Below are positions 34,492-45,498 of a stretch of 45,640 bases of DNA, in pieces. Position 1 is the stretch's first letter. Every line of letters begins with the position of its first letter. The notes below the pieces were generated by a model, which was given only the letters and a program-made list of their open reading frames with translations, was not told the DNA's origin and made no database searches. The translations under genes were made by a program, and so were the position numbers. The stretch is taken from contig CALRGQ010000005.1 of the NCBI GenBank assembly GCA_943357915.1, positions 1-45,640 of the forward strand, written 5' to 3'. Source of the DNA: Candidatus Peribacteria bacterium. Lineage in GTDB: Bacteria > Patescibacteriota > Gracilibacteria > Peribacterales > Peribacteraceae.

Positions 34492-34626
34492 CCAGCGGTC
34501 GTCAACTAATGCTTTCAATCGCAATTCCACGACCCAAACGAGAGCAGCCTTGGTACAGATGATCTGAAGCATTCTCTCAAGAACCTCCATGGGAATGCTG
34601 AAGCCTCAATGCTATTCTGCAAGAGT

Positions 34627-35703
34627 ATGGTTGTTACGCAGAGTCAGCTTGTGGTCGTAAAAATTGGCACGAATGTCATCACGAAAGATGATGGCTTACT
34701 GAATAAGCCAGTGCTTAGGCATATTGTGGAACAGGTGTGCGCATTGAAAAAGGGCGGAACGAATGTCATTCTTGTTTCCTCTGGTGCTATGGCAGCTGGC
34801 CGTTCTCTGCTTACTCCTTCTGTAAAAACTGGAAATGTTGTGAAAAGACAAATGCTTGCAGCAGTCGGGCAGGCATCTCTCATGCATGAATACCTTGATG
34901 CATTCAATGGACATGATTACCTCTGTGCTCAGGTGCTGACGACCAAAGAAGATTTTCGGACGCGTCATCATTATCTCAACATGAAGAATTGCTTTTCGGC
35001 TTTGCTCAAAGACAATGTTGTTCCGATTGTGAATGAGAACGATGTGATTTCTGTCGAGGAACTCATGTTCACGGACAATGACGAGCTTGCTGGCCTTATC
35101 ACGTCTATGGCGAATGCAGATGCTCTCGTCATTTTGACAAGTGTCGATGGTGTGTACGATGGCACTCCAAACGAGGGAGGCGCAGTAATACCCGTGATTG
35201 AACCAGAATCGACAGCATGGAAAAATCACATTCAGTCTGGCACGTCACAATTCGGCAAAGGAGGGATGCTGACAAAATGTTCGATCGCCCAAAAACTCGC
35301 GATAACAGGCATTGCAGTTTACATCGTCAATGGACGCTCTAAGGACATAGTTCTGGATGTGCTCAAAGGAAAGAAGATCGGCACGTATTTTCGCCCCCAT
35401 AAAAAAGCATCGAATGTGAAGAGATGGATTGCACACGCAGAAGGCATGGAACGAGGAAAAGTAGTCGTCAATAAGTGCGCGGTAGACATTCTTAGGTCCC
35501 CAGAAACGGTAAGCCTACTTCCTGTTGGCATCGTGAACGTGGAAGGAGAATTTGAGAAAGGCGACATCGTGCAGATTTGCCAAGAAAACGGCGAAAAACT
35601 TGGTCTTGGCAAAGCGCAGTACAATGCAGAGCGTGTTCGGTCATTGATGGGTGAAAAAGGACAGAAGCCCTTTATTCATTATGATTTTCTCTTTGTCACG
35701 TGA
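34627..35703 (+). CDS. proB: Glutamate 5-kinase with PUA domain
   Basis: 'VVKIGTNVIT', 'VILVSSGAMAAGRSLL', 'NENDVIS', 'FGKGGMLTKCSIAQKLAITGIAVYIVNG', C-terminal PUA. Confidence 0.95.
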   Translation: MVVTQSQLVVVKIGTNVITKDDGLLNKPVLRHIVEQVCALKKGGTNVILVSSGAMAAGRSLLTPSVKTGNVVKRQMLAAVGQASLMHEYLDAFNGHDYLCAQVLTTKEDFRTRHHYLNMKNCFSALLKDNVVPIVNENDVISVEELMFTDNDELAGLITSMANADALVILTSVDGVYDGTPNEGGAVIPVIEPESTAWKNHIQSGTSQFGKGGMLTKCSIAQKLAITGIAVYIVNGRSKDIVLDVLKGKKIGTYFRPHKKASNVKRWIAHAEGMERGKVVVNKCAVDILRSPETVSLLPVGIVNVEGEFEKGDIVQICQENGEKLGLGKAQYNAERVRSLMGEKGQKPFIHYDFLFVT

Positions 35704-36488
35704 AAAACACGATCGCTATCATCGGCGCAGGAAACATGGGAACAGCGCTGTGTAAAGGACTTCTGGAATCCTTGCCTGAACTTTCTGTGGCTATAACGGA
35801 CCGACATGCAGAGAGGTTGAAGCAATTTTCTGCCATTCGTACATCGACTGATCCAAAAGAGATCGTAGAGAACGCAGATCATGTTCTTATTGCCGTAAAG
35901 CCACAGTCTTTCGATGCAATCTGTGAGGAACTGCATGATCTTCTCAGGGGCAAACTCGTCATTTCCATTATGGCCGGAAAGACTCTGAAAACTCTATCGG
36001 AGAAGACGGGCTCTCGCCGAGTCGTGCGCACGATGCCGAATCTTGGTGCTCAGGTAAAAAAAGGCATGACAGCATGGATAGCCTCATCCGACGTTACTGC
36101 AAGCGAGAAAGAGAGCGTACGTATGATATTCCAAGCCGTGGGTAGGGAAATTCAGATGAAGGACGAGAGTGACATTGAACGATTCTCTGTGATCGTCGGA
36201 TGTGGTCCTGCATACTTCTTCCGACTCTGCAGTGTCCTTGCTCAGGAAGCTCAGGAGCTTGGATTTTCGTTTGCAGAATCAAAACGTATGGCCGAAGAAA
36301 CATTGATCGCAAGTGGCAGGCTACTGGAACTTGGTTCGAAAACTTCTGATGAATGGGTACAAGCCGTTGCCTCAAAGGGTGGCGTTACGGAAGCTGCTTT
36401 GCAGTATCTGGCTGAGAGTGACACGGATGTTGTGATGAAACAGGCAATCCAGAAATCCTTACTGCGTTCACGGGAACTGAATAGCTAG
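35700..36488 (+). CDS. proC: Pyrroline-5-carboxylate reductase
   Basis: 'IAIIGAGNMGTALCKGLL', 'RTMPNLGAQVKKGMTAW', 'VQAVASKGGVTEAALQYL'; GTGA overlap with proB. Confidence 0.95.
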   Translation: MKNTIAIIGAGNMGTALCKGLLESLPELSVAITDRHAERLKQFSAIRTSTDPKEIVENADHVLIAVKPQSFDAICEELHDLLRGKLVISIMAGKTLKTLSEKTGSRRVVRTMPNLGAQVKKGMTAWIASSDVTASEKESVRMIFQAVGREIQMKDESDIERFSVIVGCGPAYFFRLCSVLAQEAQELGFSFAESKRMAEETLIASGRLLELGSKTSDEWVQAVASKGGVTEAALQYLAESDTDVVMKQAIQKSLLRSRELNS

Positions 36489-36526
36489 CGCTTGCAGAAT
36501 TGCTCATACATCGTGAGAATAGCGGC

Positions 36527-37582
36527 ATGATCAACGTTGGTATTTTTGGAGCGTCTGGCTACATGGGTGGTGAAGCACTCCGCGTGCTCAATGAACATCC
36601 TGAGGTCAACATTGCGTGGGCTACCAGCCGCAGTGGTAAGCCCGTTGAGGAATTTCATCGCAATCTCTTAGGGTCGGACATCACTTTGGTTCCACCGGAG
36701 AACCTGTCACCCTGTGATGCCGTATTTGTTGCCGCTCCCTCCGGAGTAGCTATGGACGTTACAAAAAAGTTCCTCGAAGAGGGAGCAAAAGTCATAGACC
36801 TGGGGTCGGATTTCCGTCTGCATGACAAGGCAATGTGGGAAAGTGTGTACGAGAAAAAACACACGCATTGGGACCTGGCGCAGGAAGCAGTTTATGGCAT
36901 ACCGGAGCTTCATAGAGATACAATCAAAAAAGCTCGTCTGATTGCGAATCCTGGCTGTTTTTCTTCCTCTGTCATTTTCGGTTTGGCACCTCTGCTGAAA
37001 GAAGGAATTGTAGAGACCGAGCATATTGTCGTTGATGGTATGTCAGGAACCGCTGGAGCAGGAGCAGACCTGGACATCACCATGCATCATCCTGAGATTG
37101 GCAATAACGTCGTTGCTTATAATGTTGTGGATCACCGTCATACATACGAAATGGAACAAGAGCTGGGAGCACTGACGACTGACAAAGTGTCCGTACACTT
37201 CACTCCTTGCTATATACCCATCACTCGAGGCATTTTCTCTGTGTGTCATTGCTTTCCAAAGAAGCCAACGAATCGTCAGAAACTTCTTGAGCTTTACAGG
37301 GAATTTTACGCTGATGAGTTTTTCATAAAAATCTTCGATCTCCCCAAAGACCCTGGTGCTTCTTGGCAGTTCAAGCCGTATCCGTGGGTTTCAGCAACGT
37401 CAGGAACAAATTTCTGTCACATTGGGCTAGATATTGATGAGAAGAGGGGCAGGATTGTTGTTTTCAGCGCGCTTGATAGTATCGGAAAGGGGGGAGCACA
37501 CGCGGGGGTACAGAATATGAATCTACTGTTTGGTTTGGATGAGAAGATGGGGTTAGAAAGATACGGTATGCATCCGTACTGA
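36527..37582 (+). CDS. argC: N-acetyl-gamma-glutamyl-phosphate reductase family (ArgC/LysY-like)
   Basis: 'VGIFGASGYMGGEALRVLNEHPEV', 'VIDLGSDFRL', 'YGIPELHR', 'LIANPGCFSSSVIFGLAPLL', 'HRHTYEMEQEL'. Confidence 0.9.
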   Translation: MINVGIFGASGYMGGEALRVLNEHPEVNIAWATSRSGKPVEEFHRNLLGSDITLVPPENLSPCDAVFVAAPSGVAMDVTKKFLEEGAKVIDLGSDFRLHDKAMWESVYEKKHTHWDLAQEAVYGIPELHRDTIKKARLIANPGCFSSSVIFGLAPLLKEGIVETEHIVVDGMSGTAGAGADLDITMHHPEIGNNVVAYNVVDHRHTYEMEQELGALTTDKVSVHFTPCYIPITRGIFSVCHCFPKKPTNRQKLLELYREFYADEFFIKIFDLPKDPGASWQFKPYPWVSATSGTNFCHIGLDIDEKRGRIVVFSALDSIGKGGAHAGVQNMNLLFGLDEKMGLERYGMHPY

Positions 37583-37889: not shown

Positions 37890-38480
37890 TTAACTAAGAA
37901 ACTTTACCTCTCGTAAGCTAGCCCTAAAGGCTTCAGCATCTTGCTTGTATATTTGATTTGCTAAGAAAAATACCAAATAGTGCTTATTGCTGTCAGGCTC
38001 GATCTTCAAATCTATCTTTGAATCATGTAGCACTTTGTCTCTAAAGTAAGTTAGCAGATGAAAGAACACATCTGTTTCTTGTGTTTTGTAGTCGCTGTGC
38101 TCCATTCTTTTTACCACAGCTTCATTATATTCTTTCATCTCCTCGTGGAATGCTATTAATCGTTTCTCGGCTAAATCTTTTGAAAGCCCATTGTCCTGCA
38201 AGCAAAGAGAAACAGCGATGGATAGCATGAATCCAATCTCTTCAGAGGAATATTCTTTTTTACCAAAAGATGCATGCTTAACTAAAAGCCAAGCTAGAAT
38301 CATAAGTCGTAATTGTAGAGTCTGATCGTTGAATCTATTAATTTCTTCTGACGACATCTCACCTGATACACTTGCATCCAGTTTATCAGTACTAGTCTCA
38401 ATGATTCTACAGCATAACATTCTTATGAACGCTTCAAGATGCACGGGAGTCTTTGGCCGAAAATAATTTAAAAAACTCAT
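37890..38480 (-). CDS. Hypothetical protein, AT-rich
   Basis: 196 aa ORF, helical, visibly more AT-rich than its neighbours. Confidence 0.65.
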   Translation of the reverse strand: MSFLNYFRPKTPVHLEAFIRMLCCRIIETSTDKLDASVSGEMSSEEINRFNDQTLQLRLMILAWLLVKHASFGKKEYSSEEIGFMLSIAVSLCLQDNGLSKDLAEKRLIAFHEEMKEYNEAVVKRMEHSDYKTQETDVFFHLLTYFRDKVLHDSKIDLKIEPDSNKHYLVFFLANQIYKQDAEAFRASLREVKFLS

Positions 38481-38743: not shown

Positions 38744-39400
38744 TCAGTCCTTTTCTACCCGCTGATGTTCTTCGGCCTGTCTTATCAGACGAGAATGTAG
38801 CTTTTCGTTGTGACTAATCGTTTCAAGTGCCTTGATCATCGCAGTCGTATCCTTGACCAAATCTCGCTGCCCAACACCCGTGACATAGGTCATCGCCGAC
38901 GGCATTACGCGATGAGTCCATAGCTTGGCATCGTTGGCGATGTTGAAAATGTTGCTCAACTTGTCCACGACACCGTAAACCTCGCCCCATGTAACACCAT
39001 CGAGACATTCATCAGGGTCTTGCTTGTTTGCGGCATGAGCGATCGTTTCGTGCCGAATGTTTTTGATCGCCTTCAACTCCTTAGATCGGCGTAGCTTGTC
39101 GTACTCTTGTTGTGCCTCGATCAGCTTTGCGGTTTTCACGTTTGACGGCGGAGTTTGACGGGCAGTAGCCAAAACGATTCCGAAGTGCAGACAATCTTTT
39201 CGTCGATCAGTAATCCTGCTGATTCCCATGATCAGTGCTTCGATAAGCGCCCACCTGTTTTGAGTGAAAAACATGATGTAGCGGTCAAAGGGGCAGGGGC
39301 AGCGCGTCGCGTTTTCATTCAACATGCGAAGCGTTGCTACGATTTCCTGCATACGATGCAGCTCGCCCCAGATACGTTCTCCTGATTGTGAGTAGTCCAT
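38744..39400 (-). CDS. HEPN/AbiU2-like protein
   Basis: All-helical 218 aa; 'KAIKNIRHETIAHAANK' matches the HEPN R-X(4-6)-H motif. Confidence 0.6.
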   Translation of the reverse strand: MDYSQSGERIWGELHRMQEIVATLRMLNENATRCPCPFDRYIMFFTQNRWALIEALIMGISRITDRRKDCLHFGIVLATARQTPPSNVKTAKLIEAQQEYDKLRRSKELKAIKNIRHETIAHAANKQDPDECLDGVTWGEVYGVVDKLSNIFNIANDAKLWTHRVMPSAMTYVTGVGQRDLVKDTTAMIKALETISHNEKLHSRLIRQAEEHQRVEKD

Positions 39401-39409
39401 AACCGTATT

Positions 39410-40186
39410 TTATCGTGCTTCCTGTAAAACCGCAGCAGCGGGTATCTCGACCGAGTGTGCGAGAAGTTCGTGCATGAGGATCGCAATGCCCGCGAATGAC
39501 AAACACATCATCAGCGCTGTTGTGCCAACCCGCACATATTCGATCCATTCTGACGGGGCGGCGACATATTTCATCAGTTTCATGTGGTACTTGTCGGCTT
39601 TGATTCGTACTTTCAGCCATGCGATTTCATCCTCGTTGGTTTCCTGATCAAGCTTCGCCTGATTTTCGGCAATGGCTTCTCGACAGTCCATTCTGTGGCA
39701 CTCGATAAGATTGATTCTCGGATCACGTTTTTTCACTGCTGGAAGCGAGAACATAACACGGGCATCTACGATCCGTTTTTCGATGAAGATCGTTGCGAAA
39801 ATGGCGATGATCCCGACCACGATCGACGTTCCGATCAGGCCGAAGGCCGTGTAGACCATCCCGAGGTCAGGCACTACCCTCGTCCATTTCGCGCTGATCA
39901 ACACGGTGAAGAACCCCGTGATCGTCGTCATAATCAGAATGTACTTGTGCAGGTAATCCCGCCACTCTTTGAAGTTCTCACGGATCAGGGCATCTGATTC
40001 CTCGGCTCTCTTGGAGAACTCGCTTGGTCGGCGCAGGTCTTCGAGATTGCGCTGGAACTCGATCTGGCGGGTAAGCGCGTCGATGGACATTTTGGTCAAC
40101 CCGATTTCAAGGGCGATGCGATTGAGCGCATTGCTGATGAGCATGTCATTCAAACCGTTCATAATTCGCATTGTAGCATCATCCAT
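39410..40186 (-). CDS. Four-TM protein with coiled-coil-like cytoplasmic regions
   Basis: Two pairs of TM helices flanking charged helical segments; 9 nt upstream of the HEPN-like gene. Confidence 0.65.
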   Translation of the reverse strand: MDDATMRIMNGLNDMLISNALNRIALEIGLTKMSIDALTRQIEFQRNLEDLRRPSEFSKRAEESDALIRENFKEWRDYLHKYILIMTTITGFFTVLISAKWTRVVPDLGMVYTAFGLIGTSIVVGIIAIFATIFIEKRIVDARVMFSLPAVKKRDPRINLIECHRMDCREAIAENQAKLDQETNEDEIAWLKVRIKADKYHMKLMKYVAAPSEWIEYVRVGTTALMMCLSFAGIAILMHELLAHSVEIPAAAVLQEAR

Positions 40187-40257
40187 AGAGCTTGCAGGTC
40201 GTGGTGCAGCCCGAGGACAGGCTGACGGTGGCAAGTTCTGCGATGGTATCGAACCGA

Positions 40258-41271
40258 CTATTTATAAACTTCCAGCGATTGTGAAAAGGCCGTTACTTCT
40301 GCGACTTTTTCATTTGAGTGAGCATCTCGTACCTCGAAGTGGCCGTAGCCAGTGACTGCTTTTTTGAGCATGGCTGTCTTAGCAAGAAAATCTTTCTTGA
40401 ATGCGACTGTCTGTGCGTACCAAACAGAGCTGACGTAGACAACGCTTGCCTTGTCAGAAAATTCATAAGACTCTACTAAGTTCGCTTTGATACCCAAGTC
40501 CATGACTTCTTTGAGTTCCTTTTCTGCGTTGTCCTTCTTTGCTACGTCATTCTGCTTTTGCAGATCGTCTTCTTGTTGAGCAACAGCGGCAGCCATAACC
40601 TGCACTCCCGTGTACGAAGAAGGATCGTTAAGTACTTGAATAAACTCAATCTTATATCTCGCATCACCTTCAGTAAGATTCGCTCTGTCCATGAGCCGTG
40701 TGGTGTCTTGCGTTGCACCCGATGGATCACCAGAAGAAAGGAAGAAGTCTTTCACTATGTTCGATCCGTAATCGAAACTCACCATCAAGTCCTGTCCGTC
40801 TCGCGTGTACAGAATATACGCATCATGGTCGTCAGCATTGATCCGCTTAGAAGTCTCTGTGGGCTTTCCGAGCGCGGTCTTCACCTCGCTCACGGTCATG
40901 CCGACGAGCGATGGCACGTCAAAGATCATCGGGGTGCGAACACGCGGTGCAGAGGAAGTCTGCTGGGCTACGACGGGCTGTTGCTGTTCTAGTTGTAGCT
41001 TCGTATTTTGCAACTCTCCAATAAGCCTCATGGACGTTGACAACGCTATAACGACTACAAGAATACGTACCCATCTACGCGATAGGACAGAGATCTTCTT
41101 TTGAAGCCTCCGTGAGCTCGGTGGCAATGTCACTGCTGCAGCGACTAGAAGGAGCAATGATGCACGGAACGATGATGCGAGGAACAAGACTGCCATGAGC
41201 GCGAAAAACACGCCGAATATCCACGCAGCGAAGCGGCGCTTGCCTGACGCAACTGGTATTGCTGATGCCAT
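40258..41271 (-). CDS. Membrane-anchored protein with a short PASTA-like segment
   Basis: N-terminal TM helices; 'VPSLVGMTVSEVKTALGKPTETS'. Confidence 0.6.
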   Translation of the reverse strand: MASAIPVASGKRRFAAWIFGVFFALMAVLFLASSFRASLLLLVAAAVTLPPSSRRLQKKISVLSRRWVRILVVVIALSTSMRLIGELQNTKLQLEQQQPVVAQQTSSAPRVRTPMIFDVPSLVGMTVSEVKTALGKPTETSKRINADDHDAYILYTRDGQDLMVSFDYGSNIVKDFFLSSGDPSGATQDTTRLMDRANLTEGDARYKIEFIQVLNDPSSYTGVQVMAAAVAQQEDDLQKQNDVAKKDNAEKELKEVMDLGIKANLVESYEFSDKASVVYVSSVWYAQTVAFKKDFLAKTAMLKKAVTGYGHFEVRDAHSNEKVAEVTAFSQSLEVYK

Positions 41272-41351
41272 ATAGAACAGGGGGAAGGGAGGAAGTGAGT
41301 CACAACCCCTCTCTGTTCGAGCTTGATGCTCAAAAGGGACGCGCTGTGCTC

Positions 41352-41473
41352 TGTGCCCAGCTATTCCGTCGGGACGAGTCCCTAGAAATGCTGACAGAGT
41401 CAGCCGCGCCCCTTACGGGGCACTTACTAGGGACAATCCAAAAATGGATCGTCTGCGATGGAATAACTGGGCA
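41352..41473. other. Multi-branched inverted-repeat element (structured RNA or DNA)
   Basis: Nested stems GTGCCCAGCTATTCC/GGAATAACTGGGCAC, GACGA/TCGTC, GTCCCTAG/CTAGGGAC, hairpins GCTGAC-AGA-GTCAGC and GCCCC-TTAC-GGGGC. Confidence 0.7.
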
Positions 41474-41554
41474 CGGCCAGTATGCTCGCCGTGTCGCTTT
41501 GGAACAACACCTGATCGTCGTAGCGAAGGGATTGCTGTATTCTTGTAGTTGTTT

Positions 41555-42100
41555 ATGTCCGCCACCTCTCCCGCCAAAATCACAGCGAATAAGCGCAATG
41601 CCAAACTCGGTGGCGTGAAGACCGAGAACGGCAAAGCTGTCGTCCGCTGGAACGCGAAAAAGCACGGCATCCTTGGCGCTCTGCGTACCGACTACGAGGA
41701 CAACGTGTACGACAGTTACTTGCGGCAACTATACGACGAGCATCAGCCCGTCGGCTTCATCGAACGTCTGTTGGTGGAGCGCATCGGTATGTGTTGCCTC
41801 ATGCTACGCCGCGCGACCAAGGCCGAGCGGGAGTTCATGTTGTCGCGCTTGAAGCGTCCTATCCGCGACCGATTATCCTTCATCGACTACGACGAGAACA
41901 GCTACAAGCCCGTCATGGAATACGAAGACGTGGAACATCTTTCGTCGGTGTACCTGCGCTACCAGACCTCCATCGAAAATCGCCTCTACAAAGCGATGCA
42001 CGAGCTGGAACGGTTACAACGCATGAGGAGGGGCGAGACAGTGCCAAGCCCCGTCAGCGTGGACGTGACACACGACGGTGGGTTTGTTTCGCAGAACTGA
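41555..42100 (+). CDS. Mobile-element-associated 'NKRNAKLGGVKTENGKA...NAKKHGI' family protein
   Basis: N-terminal ANKRNAKLGGVKTENGKAVVRWNAKKHGILG motif of a widespread uncharacterised family. Confidence 0.65.
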   Translation: MSATSPAKITANKRNAKLGGVKTENGKAVVRWNAKKHGILGALRTDYEDNVYDSYLRQLYDEHQPVGFIERLLVERIGMCCLMLRRATKAEREFMLSRLKRPIRDRLSFIDYDENSYKPVMEYEDVEHLSSVYLRYQTSIENRLYKAMHELERLQRMRRGETVPSPVSVDVTHDGGFVSQN

Positions 42101-42102
42101 CC

Positions 42103-42408
42103 ATGAATAAAAAGACCATTGAGAAGTTGAAGTTGGCATTTTGGAACGGCTACGCGGTTCCCGAAGCGTGTGTCTACGCTGGCGTCACGCAGGAGGACTA
42201 CGAGAAGGCCGTAGCGTCGAGTACAGTCTTTGAGCGTCGTATGAACAAGGCGCAGCTCTACCCGACTGTGAAGGCCAAGGTTGAGTTGGCGAGGGCGATC
42301 AGAGGCGGCAACGTGCGACTTGCGATGAAATACCTCGAAGCGCGTGAACCTGAGCGCTACAACTTGGCGTACATTGCTCGATTCGGGAAGGCAGCAGACG
42401 AATGGTAG
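42103..42408 (+). CDS. Terminase small subunit-like HTH protein
   Basis: 'KLKLAFWNGYAVPEACVYAGVTQEDYEKAVASSTVFERRMNKAQ'. Confidence 0.5.
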   Translation: MNKKTIEKLKLAFWNGYAVPEACVYAGVTQEDYEKAVASSTVFERRMNKAQLYPTVKAKVELARAIRGGNVRLAMKYLEAREPERYNLAYIARFGKAADEW

Positions 42409-42417
42409 AGTGGAGCA

Positions 42418-43254
42418 ATGCGTCTGCTCTCGATCCTATCCGAATGTAAGGAATGCCATTTCACCGTCGGTGAGGAGCTTTTTCTGACACCCGAGGCACG
42501 TCTATACTTTCCGAGTCTCCCTCGCACCCTACCAAAACTGCGGGAGTATGACGGCTTCAATAAGTTTGATCTGTTCTTCGTCGAATGCCTCATGCGTCGC
42601 GAGGTATTTCAGGAAGCTTTCTACGTTCGCATGATCGAACTCGCGAAAGACCTGCAAACCATCTACAACGATGTTCATCAGGAGATCAGCTGGGACTGCG
42701 ATCGGGAGGATCTACGCCGCCGAGAAGTTATCGAGAAAAATCCCAACATGAAAGACGATGTTCACCCGATGACCCTGCCCGAGCGACGCGAGATGTTCGA
42801 CATGCAGAATGAGAAAATGCTGCGCCCGAGACTGCGCCTTCTGACTGCCAAGGCCGAGGACGTTGCGGAGATGCGCTTGGAACTCTACGAACGCATTATG
42901 AAGTACGACAACTACGCGAAAGCACGGCGCATTCTCTTCAAGCTCTCTGCCGACGATCGTGCCGATCTCGCCGCAAACGCCACTGGCGAAACGCGCTATG
43001 CGCACATCCTCTATGCCATCGACGCATACCTTGTACAGTATTTGAGCTTCGTTCTCAAAAAGCCCGTGAGCGGCATACTGTCGGGCGATCCACTCGGCTT
43101 GCCGTCTCGATATAGCCTGTGTCCGCACTGTGGCGATCGTATGGTCGATGTGGGCAGGCAACGGCGCAAATGCTGTGACAAGCCCGAGTGCCACAAGAAA
43201 TACGAGCGGATGCGGAAGCAGGAGCAGCGAAAAAAGAAACGCATGTCCCAGTGA
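42418..43254 (+). CDS. Protein with C-terminal Zn-ribbon/knuckle
   Basis: 'CPHCGDRMVDVGRQRRKCCDKPECHKKYERMRKQEQRKKKR'. Confidence 0.6.
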   Translation: MRLLSILSECKECHFTVGEELFLTPEARLYFPSLPRTLPKLREYDGFNKFDLFFVECLMRREVFQEAFYVRMIELAKDLQTIYNDVHQEISWDCDREDLRRREVIEKNPNMKDDVHPMTLPERREMFDMQNEKMLRPRLRLLTAKAEDVAEMRLELYERIMKYDNYAKARRILFKLSADDRADLAANATGETRYAHILYAIDAYLVQYLSFVLKKPVSGILSGDPLGLPSRYSLCPHCGDRMVDVGRQRRKCCDKPECHKKYERMRKQEQRKKKRMSQ

Positions 43255-43311
43255 GCACTTGATTGTGTCCCAGCCGATGAGGAGCAGTATGAAAGGTCAT
43301 AAGGTTGCAAG

Positions 43312-43488
43312 GTGCATAGCGCGAAGAAGCCCACAGGCAGACGTACCACTTGCCCCTATGATTTCGAAATCAAAGATGGTCACATGTTCATTGAGGGCGA
43401 GGACTTTGGGGATGCAATTGAATTTTTTGAGAAGGGTAGGAAGTTACGCGGCTTCCTACGCGTTTGCCATGAAGTCGCAATAGCGTAA
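43312..43488 (+). CDS. Small 58-aa protein not in the supplied ORF track
   Basis: GTG start: MHSAKKPTGRRTTCPYDFEIKDGHMFIEGEDFGDAIEFFEKGRKLRGFLRVCHEVAIA. Confidence 0.4.
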   Translation: MHSAKKPTGRRTTCPYDFEIKDGHMFIEGEDFGDAIEFFEKGRKLRGFLRVCHEVAIA

Positions 43489-43518
43489 CTGCGCCGCAGC
43501 TTTGAAGGTACAATCCCT

Positions 43519-45291
43519 TTGATGTTGTTTCTTGACGAGGTACCCGACATTGGCGAAGTACGATTTTCCTTCGGCAGAAGAAATGTTGAAACCAAGGCGA
43601 AGAATTACGTTATCTACTGCCGAGAGTCCGATGAGCGTCATGATAGTGCCAAGAGTATCCCCGCACAGCTAGAACAATGTCAGCAACTAGCGGAAAAAGA
43701 CGGTCTACATGTTTTACATATTGTGAAGGAGAAAATGAGTGCCAGAAACTATGATCGTCCCCGCTTCAATAATCTCGTGAAGGCTATTAAAGGCATTGAA
43801 GAGCTTCAGGAGCTGCCAAAGAGCAAGCGCAAGCTTGGAAGACCTGATGGCATCATTGCATGGCACCCAGATCGCTTGGCACGAAATATGAGAGATGCAG
43901 GTGAAATCATTGAAATGCTCGATGATGAGCAAATCAGTGACATGGAATTCGTCATGTATTCATTCCACAATGATTCTTCTGGCAAGGAACATTTGGCGAT
44001 GGAGTTTGCTCGTGCAAAAGGGTATTCGGATCATTTGCAGGATAACGTCATGCGTGGACTCATTGAGCAGGAAATGAAGGGAAAGGGCACAAAACCGTTG
44101 TCGCCTGCCTTCGAGGTGATTCGTAAAGGAAAAGGTGAGGAGTCTCACCCTGATCATCTAAAAATCATTCCTTCAAAGCTGCATAGCTATTGGCGTAATG
44201 TGTACGTATGGAAGCTGGAAGGGAAGACAAATGAGGAGATTGCAAAGCTGCTTGTAGATGATGGCTACTTGCATAGGAAGTTTGTTCGCGAGCAAAACGA
44301 AAAAGGAAGGTGGTATACGGTGAAAATTGATAAGAATTATATCGGTCTGCATATCAAGAATCCTATTCATTGTGGCTGGCTCATACCAAAGAAGACCAAG
44401 GAGCCACGCAAGGCTGATCTGACGAAGATTTATCCATTGCAGTACGGTGAAGATTTCCCGATTGTTGTAACAGTTGAGGAATTCAAGCGGGTGAATCCGA
44501 ATATGTTCAAGGAGACTGCAAAGCAGCCACAGGGCGGCAGTCGTCGTAGTCAATATCCGCTAGCCTCCAATAAAGTATTTTGTTCTGTCAGACAAAAACA
44601 GAAGCTTCTCGCTTCAATGACTCCAAATAAGCCCACAGGTGGTTCAAAGAAGCCATCGCCACGCTTCACTTGTCAGAACTGCAAACCGCAACACAGTATT
44701 TTCATGGAGACGGTCTTCGATGCTATTGGAGAAAAACTGAAAGATGTGAAGCTCACCGAGCGGGAACATAAGATTCTTGTCGTGACTGAATGGCATCATT
44801 ACAAGCAAGAGAGGCTACAGGCGGAGGCAACTGAACGTCAGCTATCGGCACTGAAGGCCACGAACAAAGCAGAAATTCAGGAATGTGAGGAGAGACTGAA
44901 TGCCATGAAGTATTCAAAGCCCGTCGCAACTGAAGGCGAAGTGCAGGCTGAGGAGCGCAGGTTGAAACGATTACGAGAGGAAAAGAAGTCTCTTCTAAAG
45001 AGAGAAGGTAATCTGGATGATGAAGGCATGAAACGGTACGAGGAGCTGGATGCGTTTCTCGAACTTTCTAAGAATGGCTCTGCTTGGTGGAAAAAGGCGA
45101 CAGATGATCAAAAGCGCAAGATTGCTGATCTTGTCGTCTCGAACGTAGTAATTGATGGTGGAGAAGTGGCTTCTGTAAGCCTTTCTGAACCATTCCTGAG
45201 CTGGTCTTTGGACAACAAGACTTCCATGGTCGGGATGCAGGGACTCGAACCCTGGGTCTCCAGACCCCCAGCCTGGCGCTTTACCAACTAA
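43519..45291 (+). CDS. Large serine recombinase
   Basis: 'YVIYCRESDERHDSAKSIPAQLEQCQQLAEKDG', 'IIAWHPDRLARNMRDAGEIIEML', recombinase domain, long C-terminal coiled coil; last ~20 aa are antisense of tRNA-Pro; ORF start uncertain. Confidence 0.9.
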   Translation: MMLFLDEVPDIGEVRFSFGRRNVETKAKNYVIYCRESDERHDSAKSIPAQLEQCQQLAEKDGLHVLHIVKEKMSARNYDRPRFNNLVKAIKGIEELQELPKSKRKLGRPDGIIAWHPDRLARNMRDAGEIIEMLDDEQISDMEFVMYSFHNDSSGKEHLAMEFARAKGYSDHLQDNVMRGLIEQEMKGKGTKPLSPAFEVIRKGKGEESHPDHLKIIPSKLHSYWRNVYVWKLEGKTNEEIAKLLVDDGYLHRKFVREQNEKGRWYTVKIDKNYIGLHIKNPIHCGWLIPKKTKEPRKADLTKIYPLQYGEDFPIVVTVEEFKRVNPNMFKETAKQPQGGSRRSQYPLASNKVFCSVRQKQKLLASMTPNKPTGGSKKPSPRFTCQNCKPQHSIFMETVFDAIGEKLKDVKLTEREHKILVVTEWHHYKQERLQAEATERQLSALKATNKAEIQECEERLNAMKYSKPVATEGEVQAEERRLKRLREEKKSLLKREGNLDDEGMKRYEELDAFLELSKNGSAWWKKATDDQKRKIADLVVSNVVIDGGEVASVSLSEPFLSWSLDNKTSMVGMQGLEPWVSRPPAWRFTN

Positions 45292-45302
45292 GCTACATCC
45301 CG
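45227..45302 (-). tRNA. tRNA-Pro (GGG), CCA encoded
   Basis: CGGGATGTAGCTTAGTTGGTAAAGC...CTGGGGG...GGTTCGAGTCCCTGCATCCCGACCA on the minus strand. Confidence 0.93.
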
Positions 45303-45367
45303 ATGTGTTCTGATTATAGATGATCTGACATGCGCCAGTGGCCTTTTTTTGCTTGCAGCAGGCTTGG

Positions 45368-45388
45368 ACCAACTAAGCTACATCCCGA
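45368..45388 (-). repeat. 21-nt exact duplicate of the tRNA-Pro 5' end
   Basis: ACCAACTAAGCTACATCCCGA, identical to 45283-45303. Confidence 0.85.
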
Positions 45389-45498
45389 ACGAAAAGATTT
45401 TAGCTGGTTCACCGAAGCCTCTCCAGTCTCTATGCAATTAGTGTTGGTTGCGAGATGACTTGCAAACATTCCAATGAACGAATAACAATAAATATATA

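Follow-up and report, generated by a model that had tools for sequence, protein, structure and literature searches.

The window analyzed here is an entire contig (C5; 45,640 nucleotides) of the 1.39-Mb, 97%-complete genome of a Candidatus Peribacteria bacterium, and it carries near one end a candidate integrative element that abuts a tRNA-Pro gene. An earlier note on this DNA had listed, in order, a structured element, a NAKKHG-family protein, a helix-turn-helix (HTH) protein resembling a terminase small subunit (TerS), a Zn-knuckle protein, a 58-aa open reading frame (ORF), and a large serine recombinase, and we recovered every one of these in that order, all on the + strand. The structured element, which may be RNA or single-strand DNA, occupies a divergent intergenic gap at positions 41297 to 41523. 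It is followed by the NAKKHG-family gene (181 aa; 41555 to 42100, ATG start), the TerS-like HTH gene (101 aa; 42103 to 42408), a gene for a 278-aa protein with a C-terminal CxxC...C Zn-knuckle-like motif (42418 to 43254; ORF and Pfam scan), the 58-aa ORF, which has no family in the Pfam and PHROG scans (43312 to 43488), and the recombinase gene (590 aa; 43519 to 45291). The tRNA-Pro(GGG) gene lies on the − strand at 45227 to 45302, is intact with an encoded CCA, and is recognized by ARAGORN and by Rfam (RF00005, 68.4 bits). Genes between 37.9 and 45.3 kb were scanned with Pfam, NCBIfam, and PHROG, and among them there was no match to capsid, large terminase (TerL), portal, relaxase, conjugation, or DDE transposase genes. 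The element is thus, as the note had argued, neither a standard phage nor an integrative and conjugative element (ICE).

The last gene of this series encodes a protein with the hallmarks of large serine recombinases. Its more than 400 residues hold a Resolvase domain (Pfam, E = 7.2e−15) followed by a Recombinase domain (E = 1.7e−4), its PHROG match is to integrases (E = 4.7e−34), and the sequence has both the motif of the catalytic Ser nucleophile (YCRES) and a DRLAR motif; a Zn-ribbon domain was not detected in it. The recombinase frame enters tRNA-Pro from the 3′ side in antisense, and the overlap, which had been put at about 65 nt, is exactly 65 nt. This geometry suggests a crossover near the 3′ end of the tRNA gene, probably made by the island's own recombinase. 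The inserted element restores the 3′ end of the tRNA, so that the integrase gene now ends within tRNA sequence read in antisense. A search of the left flank and the remainder of the window for a second copy of the 3′ half of tRNA-Pro returned none. As a left attachment (att) site, we also considered a 14/15-bp repeat at 41183 to 41197, and rejected it: a repeat as good was obtained in 7 of 100 shuffles, and it sits inside conserved coding sequence.

Comparison with relatives (genomes are given G numbers, and their loci L numbers) places this junction in a variable locus with the order enolase, variable stretch, tRNA-Pro(GGG), DHH phosphoesterase, and IF-2. Between the end of the enolase gene (34160) and tRNA-Pro, the window has 11 kb. 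In the relative G006, enolase, a single 133-aa ORF, tRNA-Pro, DHH, and IF-2 are contiguous, and the empty site that the earlier note proposed to look for is thereby present, lacking the whole stretch. Insertion at a tRNA end and an empty site in a relative, two marks of a tRNA-targeting island, are both observed. In two genomes of the same genus, contigs break at this locus: in G002, one contig starts at the tRNA 3′ end and another ends ~570 bp past enolase, and in G001, the enolase contig likewise stops soon after that gene. These breaks fit a variable spot and prove nothing. Taken together, an integrative element at the 3′ end of tRNA-Pro is well supported.

The same geometry recurs throughout the lineage. 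We gathered its large serine recombinases and measured where their frames end (n = 33, including those of the window, G281, and G031). In 23 of the 33, the frame ends in antisense within or past the 3′ end of a tRNA or transfer-messenger RNA (tmRNA) gene; the other 10 include three that are cut by contig ends and six that belong to a separate clade (four of these adjoin large-terminase genes). The targets include Thr, tmRNA, Ile, Arg, Asn, Met, Glu, Asp, Gln, Tyr, Lys, Val, Ser, Leu, and Pro. Seven sister pairs in the recombinase tree have known targets, and in three of them both members use a tRNA for the same amino acid (Glu/Glu, Gln/Gln, and Val/Val), where ~0.4 pairs would be expected by chance according to our own arithmetic from label frequencies. 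Far repeats were found in two relatives. At tRNA-Asp of G018, the 20 nt of the 3′ end plus one base form a 21-bp direct repeat that bounds an island of ~5.4 kb, and at tRNA-Glu of G025, 14 bp of the 3′ end are repeated 9.2 kb upstream of the recombinase start. Because eight repeats of at least 11 bp were observed over all loci and ~2.7 were expected, short repeats of tRNA ends mean little.

Two side observations concern these recombinases. Upstream of intact recombinases at tRNA-Glu (L207, ~5430) and tRNA-Asp (L204, 722 to 904) lie C-terminal recombinase remnants, which suggest that successive elements have used the same tRNA repeatedly. Members of the separate clade (L080, L211, L219, and L221) are located downstream of TerS-TerL genes and not at tRNAs, and some of them are accompanied by ParB-like and DNA methylase genes.

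The recombinase also travels with the other genes of the block. The earlier note would have been contradicted by recombinase orthologs unaccompanied by this gene set; for NAKKHG, we found instead seven loci besides the window with a NAKKHG-family gene close to a tRNA- or tmRNA-overlapping integrase, and an eighth locus (G004) where the contig stops directly past the integrase. NAKKHG homologs that are 57 to 66% identical adjoin recombinases ending in tRNA-Thr (G018), tRNA-Ile (G023), and tmRNA (G007), and further pairs occur at tRNA-Arg and tRNA-Asn. In G018, the two genes are ~7 kb apart with a primase gene in between, and in one bacterium, the NAKKHG partner is a tyrosine integrase at tRNA-Gln. 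NAKKHG, TerS, and recombinase genes occur together again at tRNA-Ile and tRNA-Thr, and in G181, the N terminus of NAKKHG is fused to a TerS HTH domain (L166, 7354 to 7827) 4 kb from a recombinase that ends in tRNA-Met. The closest named NAKKHG homologs come from Candidatus Peribacteria or Peregrinibacteria (Patescibacteria). Relatives in G026, Chloroflexi, Verrucomicrobia, and Planctomycetota have no integrase within the stretch examined, and the NAKKHG family is therefore wider than the element. Against plasmids, NAKKHG gave two weak matches. Its AF2 model is helical and of low confidence (pLDDT, a per-residue confidence score, of 64.5), and this low-confidence model had no Foldseek match. 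In G124 and G088 (L164 and L165), relatives of NAKKHG and of the recombinase occur in genomes with many TGA codons in their frames, which suggests TGA recoding.

For the window's own HTH protein, the resemblance to a terminase small subunit is weak (PHROG 4102, E = 0.0036); it is firmer in homologs, whose matches to TerS have E values of 1.2e−3, 7.4e−6, and, in the NAKKHG-HTH fusion, 1.4e−12. The Foldseek ranking of the HTH protein includes the TerS proteins of Sf6 and phBC6A51, without significance, and a search of the TerS-like protein against PDB sequences returned nothing meaningful. The Zn-knuckle protein has one weak relative, in G007 (32% identity, E = 1.5e−4). Related loci also carry replication genes, namely a TOPRIM primase, an O-like replication protein, or an AAA protein (L075, L077, L145, L204, L218, and L229).

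The structured element at the left of the block proved to be real. Its predicted fold has an energy of −90.2 kcal/mol (z = −7.7 versus shuffles), and Rfam covariance models gave no match to it at the gathering score or up to E = 5. The first relative, an 82% identical copy in G025, was the source of the first covariance model, and a covariance search of 353 genomes of the class revealed three more copies (E = 9.8e−24, 4.4e−21, and 9.8e−13), which places the element in 5 of the 353 genomes. A more sensitive covariance model (R2) yielded no further copies among the loci gathered, and the exact motif was found neither in IMG/VR nor in phage records. Folded individually, each of the five sequences gives a long stem that is interrupted and encloses two or three hairpins. 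In the five-sequence alignment, 92.7% of cells pair, and double-sided changes are seen in 26 of 54 pairs versus 11.4 in shuffles (0 of 500 shuffles as high), counts that lean towards the first model because the alignment was fitted to it, as the separate individual folds do not. When partners are slid by 1 to 3 columns, only 3 to 8 double-changed pairs are left.

The five copies have a common setting. Each is located in a divergent intergenic gap, and a large serine recombinase starts 0.9 to 3.7 kb away; of these recombinases, four end in a tRNA (Pro, Glu, Leu, and Asn) and one is truncated by a contig end. Since three of the five elements were found regardless of position, the association with the recombinase is not circular. 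Relative to the recombinase, two copies have the same orientation and three the opposite one, a mixture that speaks against a simple leader function for the integrase operon. No consensus promoters or terminators were seen around the element.

Could the element act as DNA, for instance as a replication origin or as a packaging or recombination hairpin? An origin would fit the central place between modules and the occurrence of both orientations relative to the integrase, and replication genes are present in related islands. However, conservation is strand specific (260 versus 13 bits), and 17 G-U cells occur among 241 standard pairs; both the strand-specific scoring and the G-U pairs favor RNA over DNA, and we regard a DNA role as rather unlikely. 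We tentatively propose, at somewhat less than even odds, that the element founds a new RNA class that marks and controls a family of tRNA-targeting, defense-carrying phage satellites with serine integrases in Patescibacteria.

The position of the structured element also bears on the extent of the island. The earlier note had set its left limit at 41300, which is probably wrong: in related loci, the structured element is internal, and cargo lies beyond it. Beyond the RNA, as seen from the recombinase, there are an EcoRI-type methylase and a restriction enzyme of type II (G281), an OLD/GajA-like nuclease (G031), an AAA ATPase (G275), and a HEPN protein (G025); the 5.4-kb island at tRNA-Asp of G018 carries a Pycsar cyclase. 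Because related loci hold cargo across the RNA and the window has there an AbiU2-type HEPN gene with three other − strand genes, the island probably extends, by analogy, beyond 41300 on the left, to ~37.9 kb or farther. The gene nearest to the RNA encodes a 337-aa membrane protein with a BamE/OsmE-like domain (40258 to 41271), whose relatives are found only in G009 and G001 among 36 genomes and which is probably on the cargo side. Next to it are a probable cargo gene for a membrane protein without a family in the Pfam scan (39410 to 40234; 274 aa from TTG or 250 aa from ATG at 40162) and the gene for the AbiU2-like HEPN protein (38744 to 39400; Pfam AbiU2, E = 1.8e−12), a probable anti-phage cargo judging by its family. 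The fourth encodes a 196-aa protein with no firm family in the Pfam scan, a possible cargo (37890 to 38480). PADLOC had no model match among the window cargo. In G281, the gene for a reverse transcriptase of a defense-associated type (L229, 13772 to 14677; PADLOC RT_VI, 1.2e−61) lies 5.7 kb beyond the structured RNA.

Farther left, between enolase and the element, lies a + strand proB-proC-argC-like operon (34609 to 37582; Pfam) that is not at this place in G006 and may or may not belong to the island. No proA was seen beside it, and one could speculate that the ArgC-like protein stands in for ProA.

On the other side of tRNA-Pro, 85 bp upstream of the gene, an exact second copy of the initial 21 nt of the tRNA lies on the − strand at 45368 to 45388. 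The earlier note had reported such a 5′ fragment and had taken it as consistent with integration; the fragment is there, and its interpretation as an integration signature or att relic fails, given that 28 of 124 distinct tRNA genes have similar "shadows," defined as at least 11 of the first 12 nt repeated no more than 150 nt upstream (mostly 74 to 125 nt). The tRNA genes come from loci fetched for this study, a nonrandom sample weighted to this family, and the loci with shadows include L111 to L140, L173 to L202, L075, L078, and L082. An earlier count over 120 tRNA genes gave 21 exact 12/12 matches and none in reverse-complement, downstream, or swapped controls. Most of the shadow-bearing genes are without a recombinase. 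Because the sister G001 has both the fragment and the spacer (91% identity over 166 bp) and no recombinase in the 0.76 kb of contig left beyond its tRNA, the fragment predates, or is independent of, the integrase. The shadow copy is followed or interrupted by a hairpin, and at tRNA-Asn of G009 and tRNA-Trp of G018, the promoter region is also repeated exactly over 22 nt. The simplest description is a tandem duplication of the promoter and the tRNA 5′ end around a hairpin insert. At tRNA-Val and tRNA-Ile of G017 (L078), the 5′ shadow and hairpin are followed by a 16-nt antisense copy of tRNA positions 13 to 28; an antisense segment of this kind is clear in a few cases only. Partial 5′ tRNA copies are thus common in these genomes and should not be taken as att relics, a trap that these data correct.

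We propose, with a probability of roughly two-thirds, that the window carries a defense-carrying island of the phage satellite type that was inserted by its own large serine integrase and occupies the 3′ end of tRNA-Pro(GGG), with enolase on one side and DHH/IF-2 on the other. The proposal draws on direct observations of the location, the geometry, the empty site, the recurrence, the far repeats in two relatives, the covarying RNA, and the cargo families. Read from the tRNA, the island would consist of the integrase; a module of the 58-aa ORF, Zn-knuckle, TerS-like HTH, and NAKKHG genes, to which their families suggest a packaging or regulatory role; the structured RNA in the divergent control gap; and oppositely transcribed cargo, including the AbiU2-like HEPN gene, with a putative function in defense. 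The TerS-like protein might direct the large terminase of a helper phage to island DNA, as TerS does in Staphylococcus aureus pathogenicity islands (SaPI) and other phage-inducible chromosomal islands (PICI), and the RNA may act, as a leader or a small RNA, where the island switches between its mobility module and its cargo.

Several results weigh against this proposal. Neither a helper phage nor an excised form was seen, NAKKHG has no match in INPHARED phages or IMG/VR, and the TerS match of the window protein is weak. The window recombinase is a divergent long branch in the recombinase tree. The window element contains no primase or similar replication gene, and no far direct repeat of the tRNA-Pro 3′ end was found in the window, the best candidate being the chance-level 14/15 bp. 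Because the far repeat and the replication gene were both looked for and are absent in the window, we file the element as satellite-like and not as a confirmed phage satellite. The same two absences are what one would expect of a fossil, that is, a once-mobile tRNA-Pro island that lost its far att site and the primase its relatives have and that now persists as a stable chromosomal segment, maintained for its cargo. Decayed copies do exist in relatives, such as a NAKKHG gene with a frame break in G017 and recombinase pieces at tRNA-Pro(TGG) in G019. In the window, however, the genes for the recombinase, NAKKHG, and the TerS-like protein have all retained open frames, the integrase still has its motifs, and the junction with the tRNA is undamaged, which makes a fossil unlikely in our judgment.

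The TerS-like gene and the phage-type integrase family could also be what is left of a full prophage after deletion of its capsid, tail, and large terminase genes. Such a loss is very improbable, given that the same compact arrangement without structural genes is found at different tRNAs in independent genomes and that the TerL-linked recombinases form a separate clade not found at tRNAs. We give least credence, and next to none, to a 4-kb element exactly as first drawn (41300 to 45390), in which the tRNA-Pro 5′ fragment would be the outer att relic. Its coordinates fit the NAKKHG-to-recombinase block, and the 14/15-bp repeat lies close by, but that repeat is within chance and falls in a conserved gene, relatives have the structured element in an internal position, and the 5′ fragment is one shadow of many, present also in a sister without a recombinase beside the tRNA. 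A phage satellite or recombinase island, the class held plausible in the earlier note, is still the best one; the core idea of that note is right and, in one respect, understated, since a family with a shared RNA exists.

Mobile elements of Patescibacteria are hardly described, and our search of the available literature found nothing direct on satellites or serine-recombinase tRNA islands in this phylum. The family would offer a defined system for satellite biology in Patescibacteria and a set of natural pairs of integrases and tRNA targets, and the covarying RNA would be a new RNA class with a directly testable function.

Among known systems, PICI and SaPI satellites, which usually carry a tyrosine integrase, are similar to the window island in having an integrase, a putative TerS-like gene, and anti-phage-type cargo and in lacking capsid and large terminase genes; the PICI combination of an integrase with no structural genes is found among the window genes scanned. 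Relatives of the window island share with these satellites direct repeats and replication genes as well. The differences are the serine integrase, the NAKKHG gene, the structured RNA, and the Patescibacteria hosts, and the window copy is without a replication gene. Within the same lineage, the TerS-TerL-linked recombinases (L080 of G001 and its relatives) are likewise large serine recombinases near terminase genes, but they belong to a separate clade, are accompanied by a large terminase and sometimes by ParB or methylase genes, and are not at tRNAs. In streptococcal ICEs inserted in rumA, a direct precedent, the 3′ end of the serine integrase gene is exchanged with that of the target gene (PMC4701971). 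The Peribacteria islands resemble them in the location of the integrase at the element end, in a 3′ end that shares target sequence, and in the reciprocal 3′ exchange, and differ in that the target is the 3′ end of a tRNA or tmRNA gene and conjugation genes are absent. Finally, insertion at a tRNA or tmRNA gene that is restored in the process is common to the tRNA-targeting genomic islands of the Islander/TIGER type (PMC12884075), whereas here the diverse large serine integrases of one lineage use many different tRNAs.

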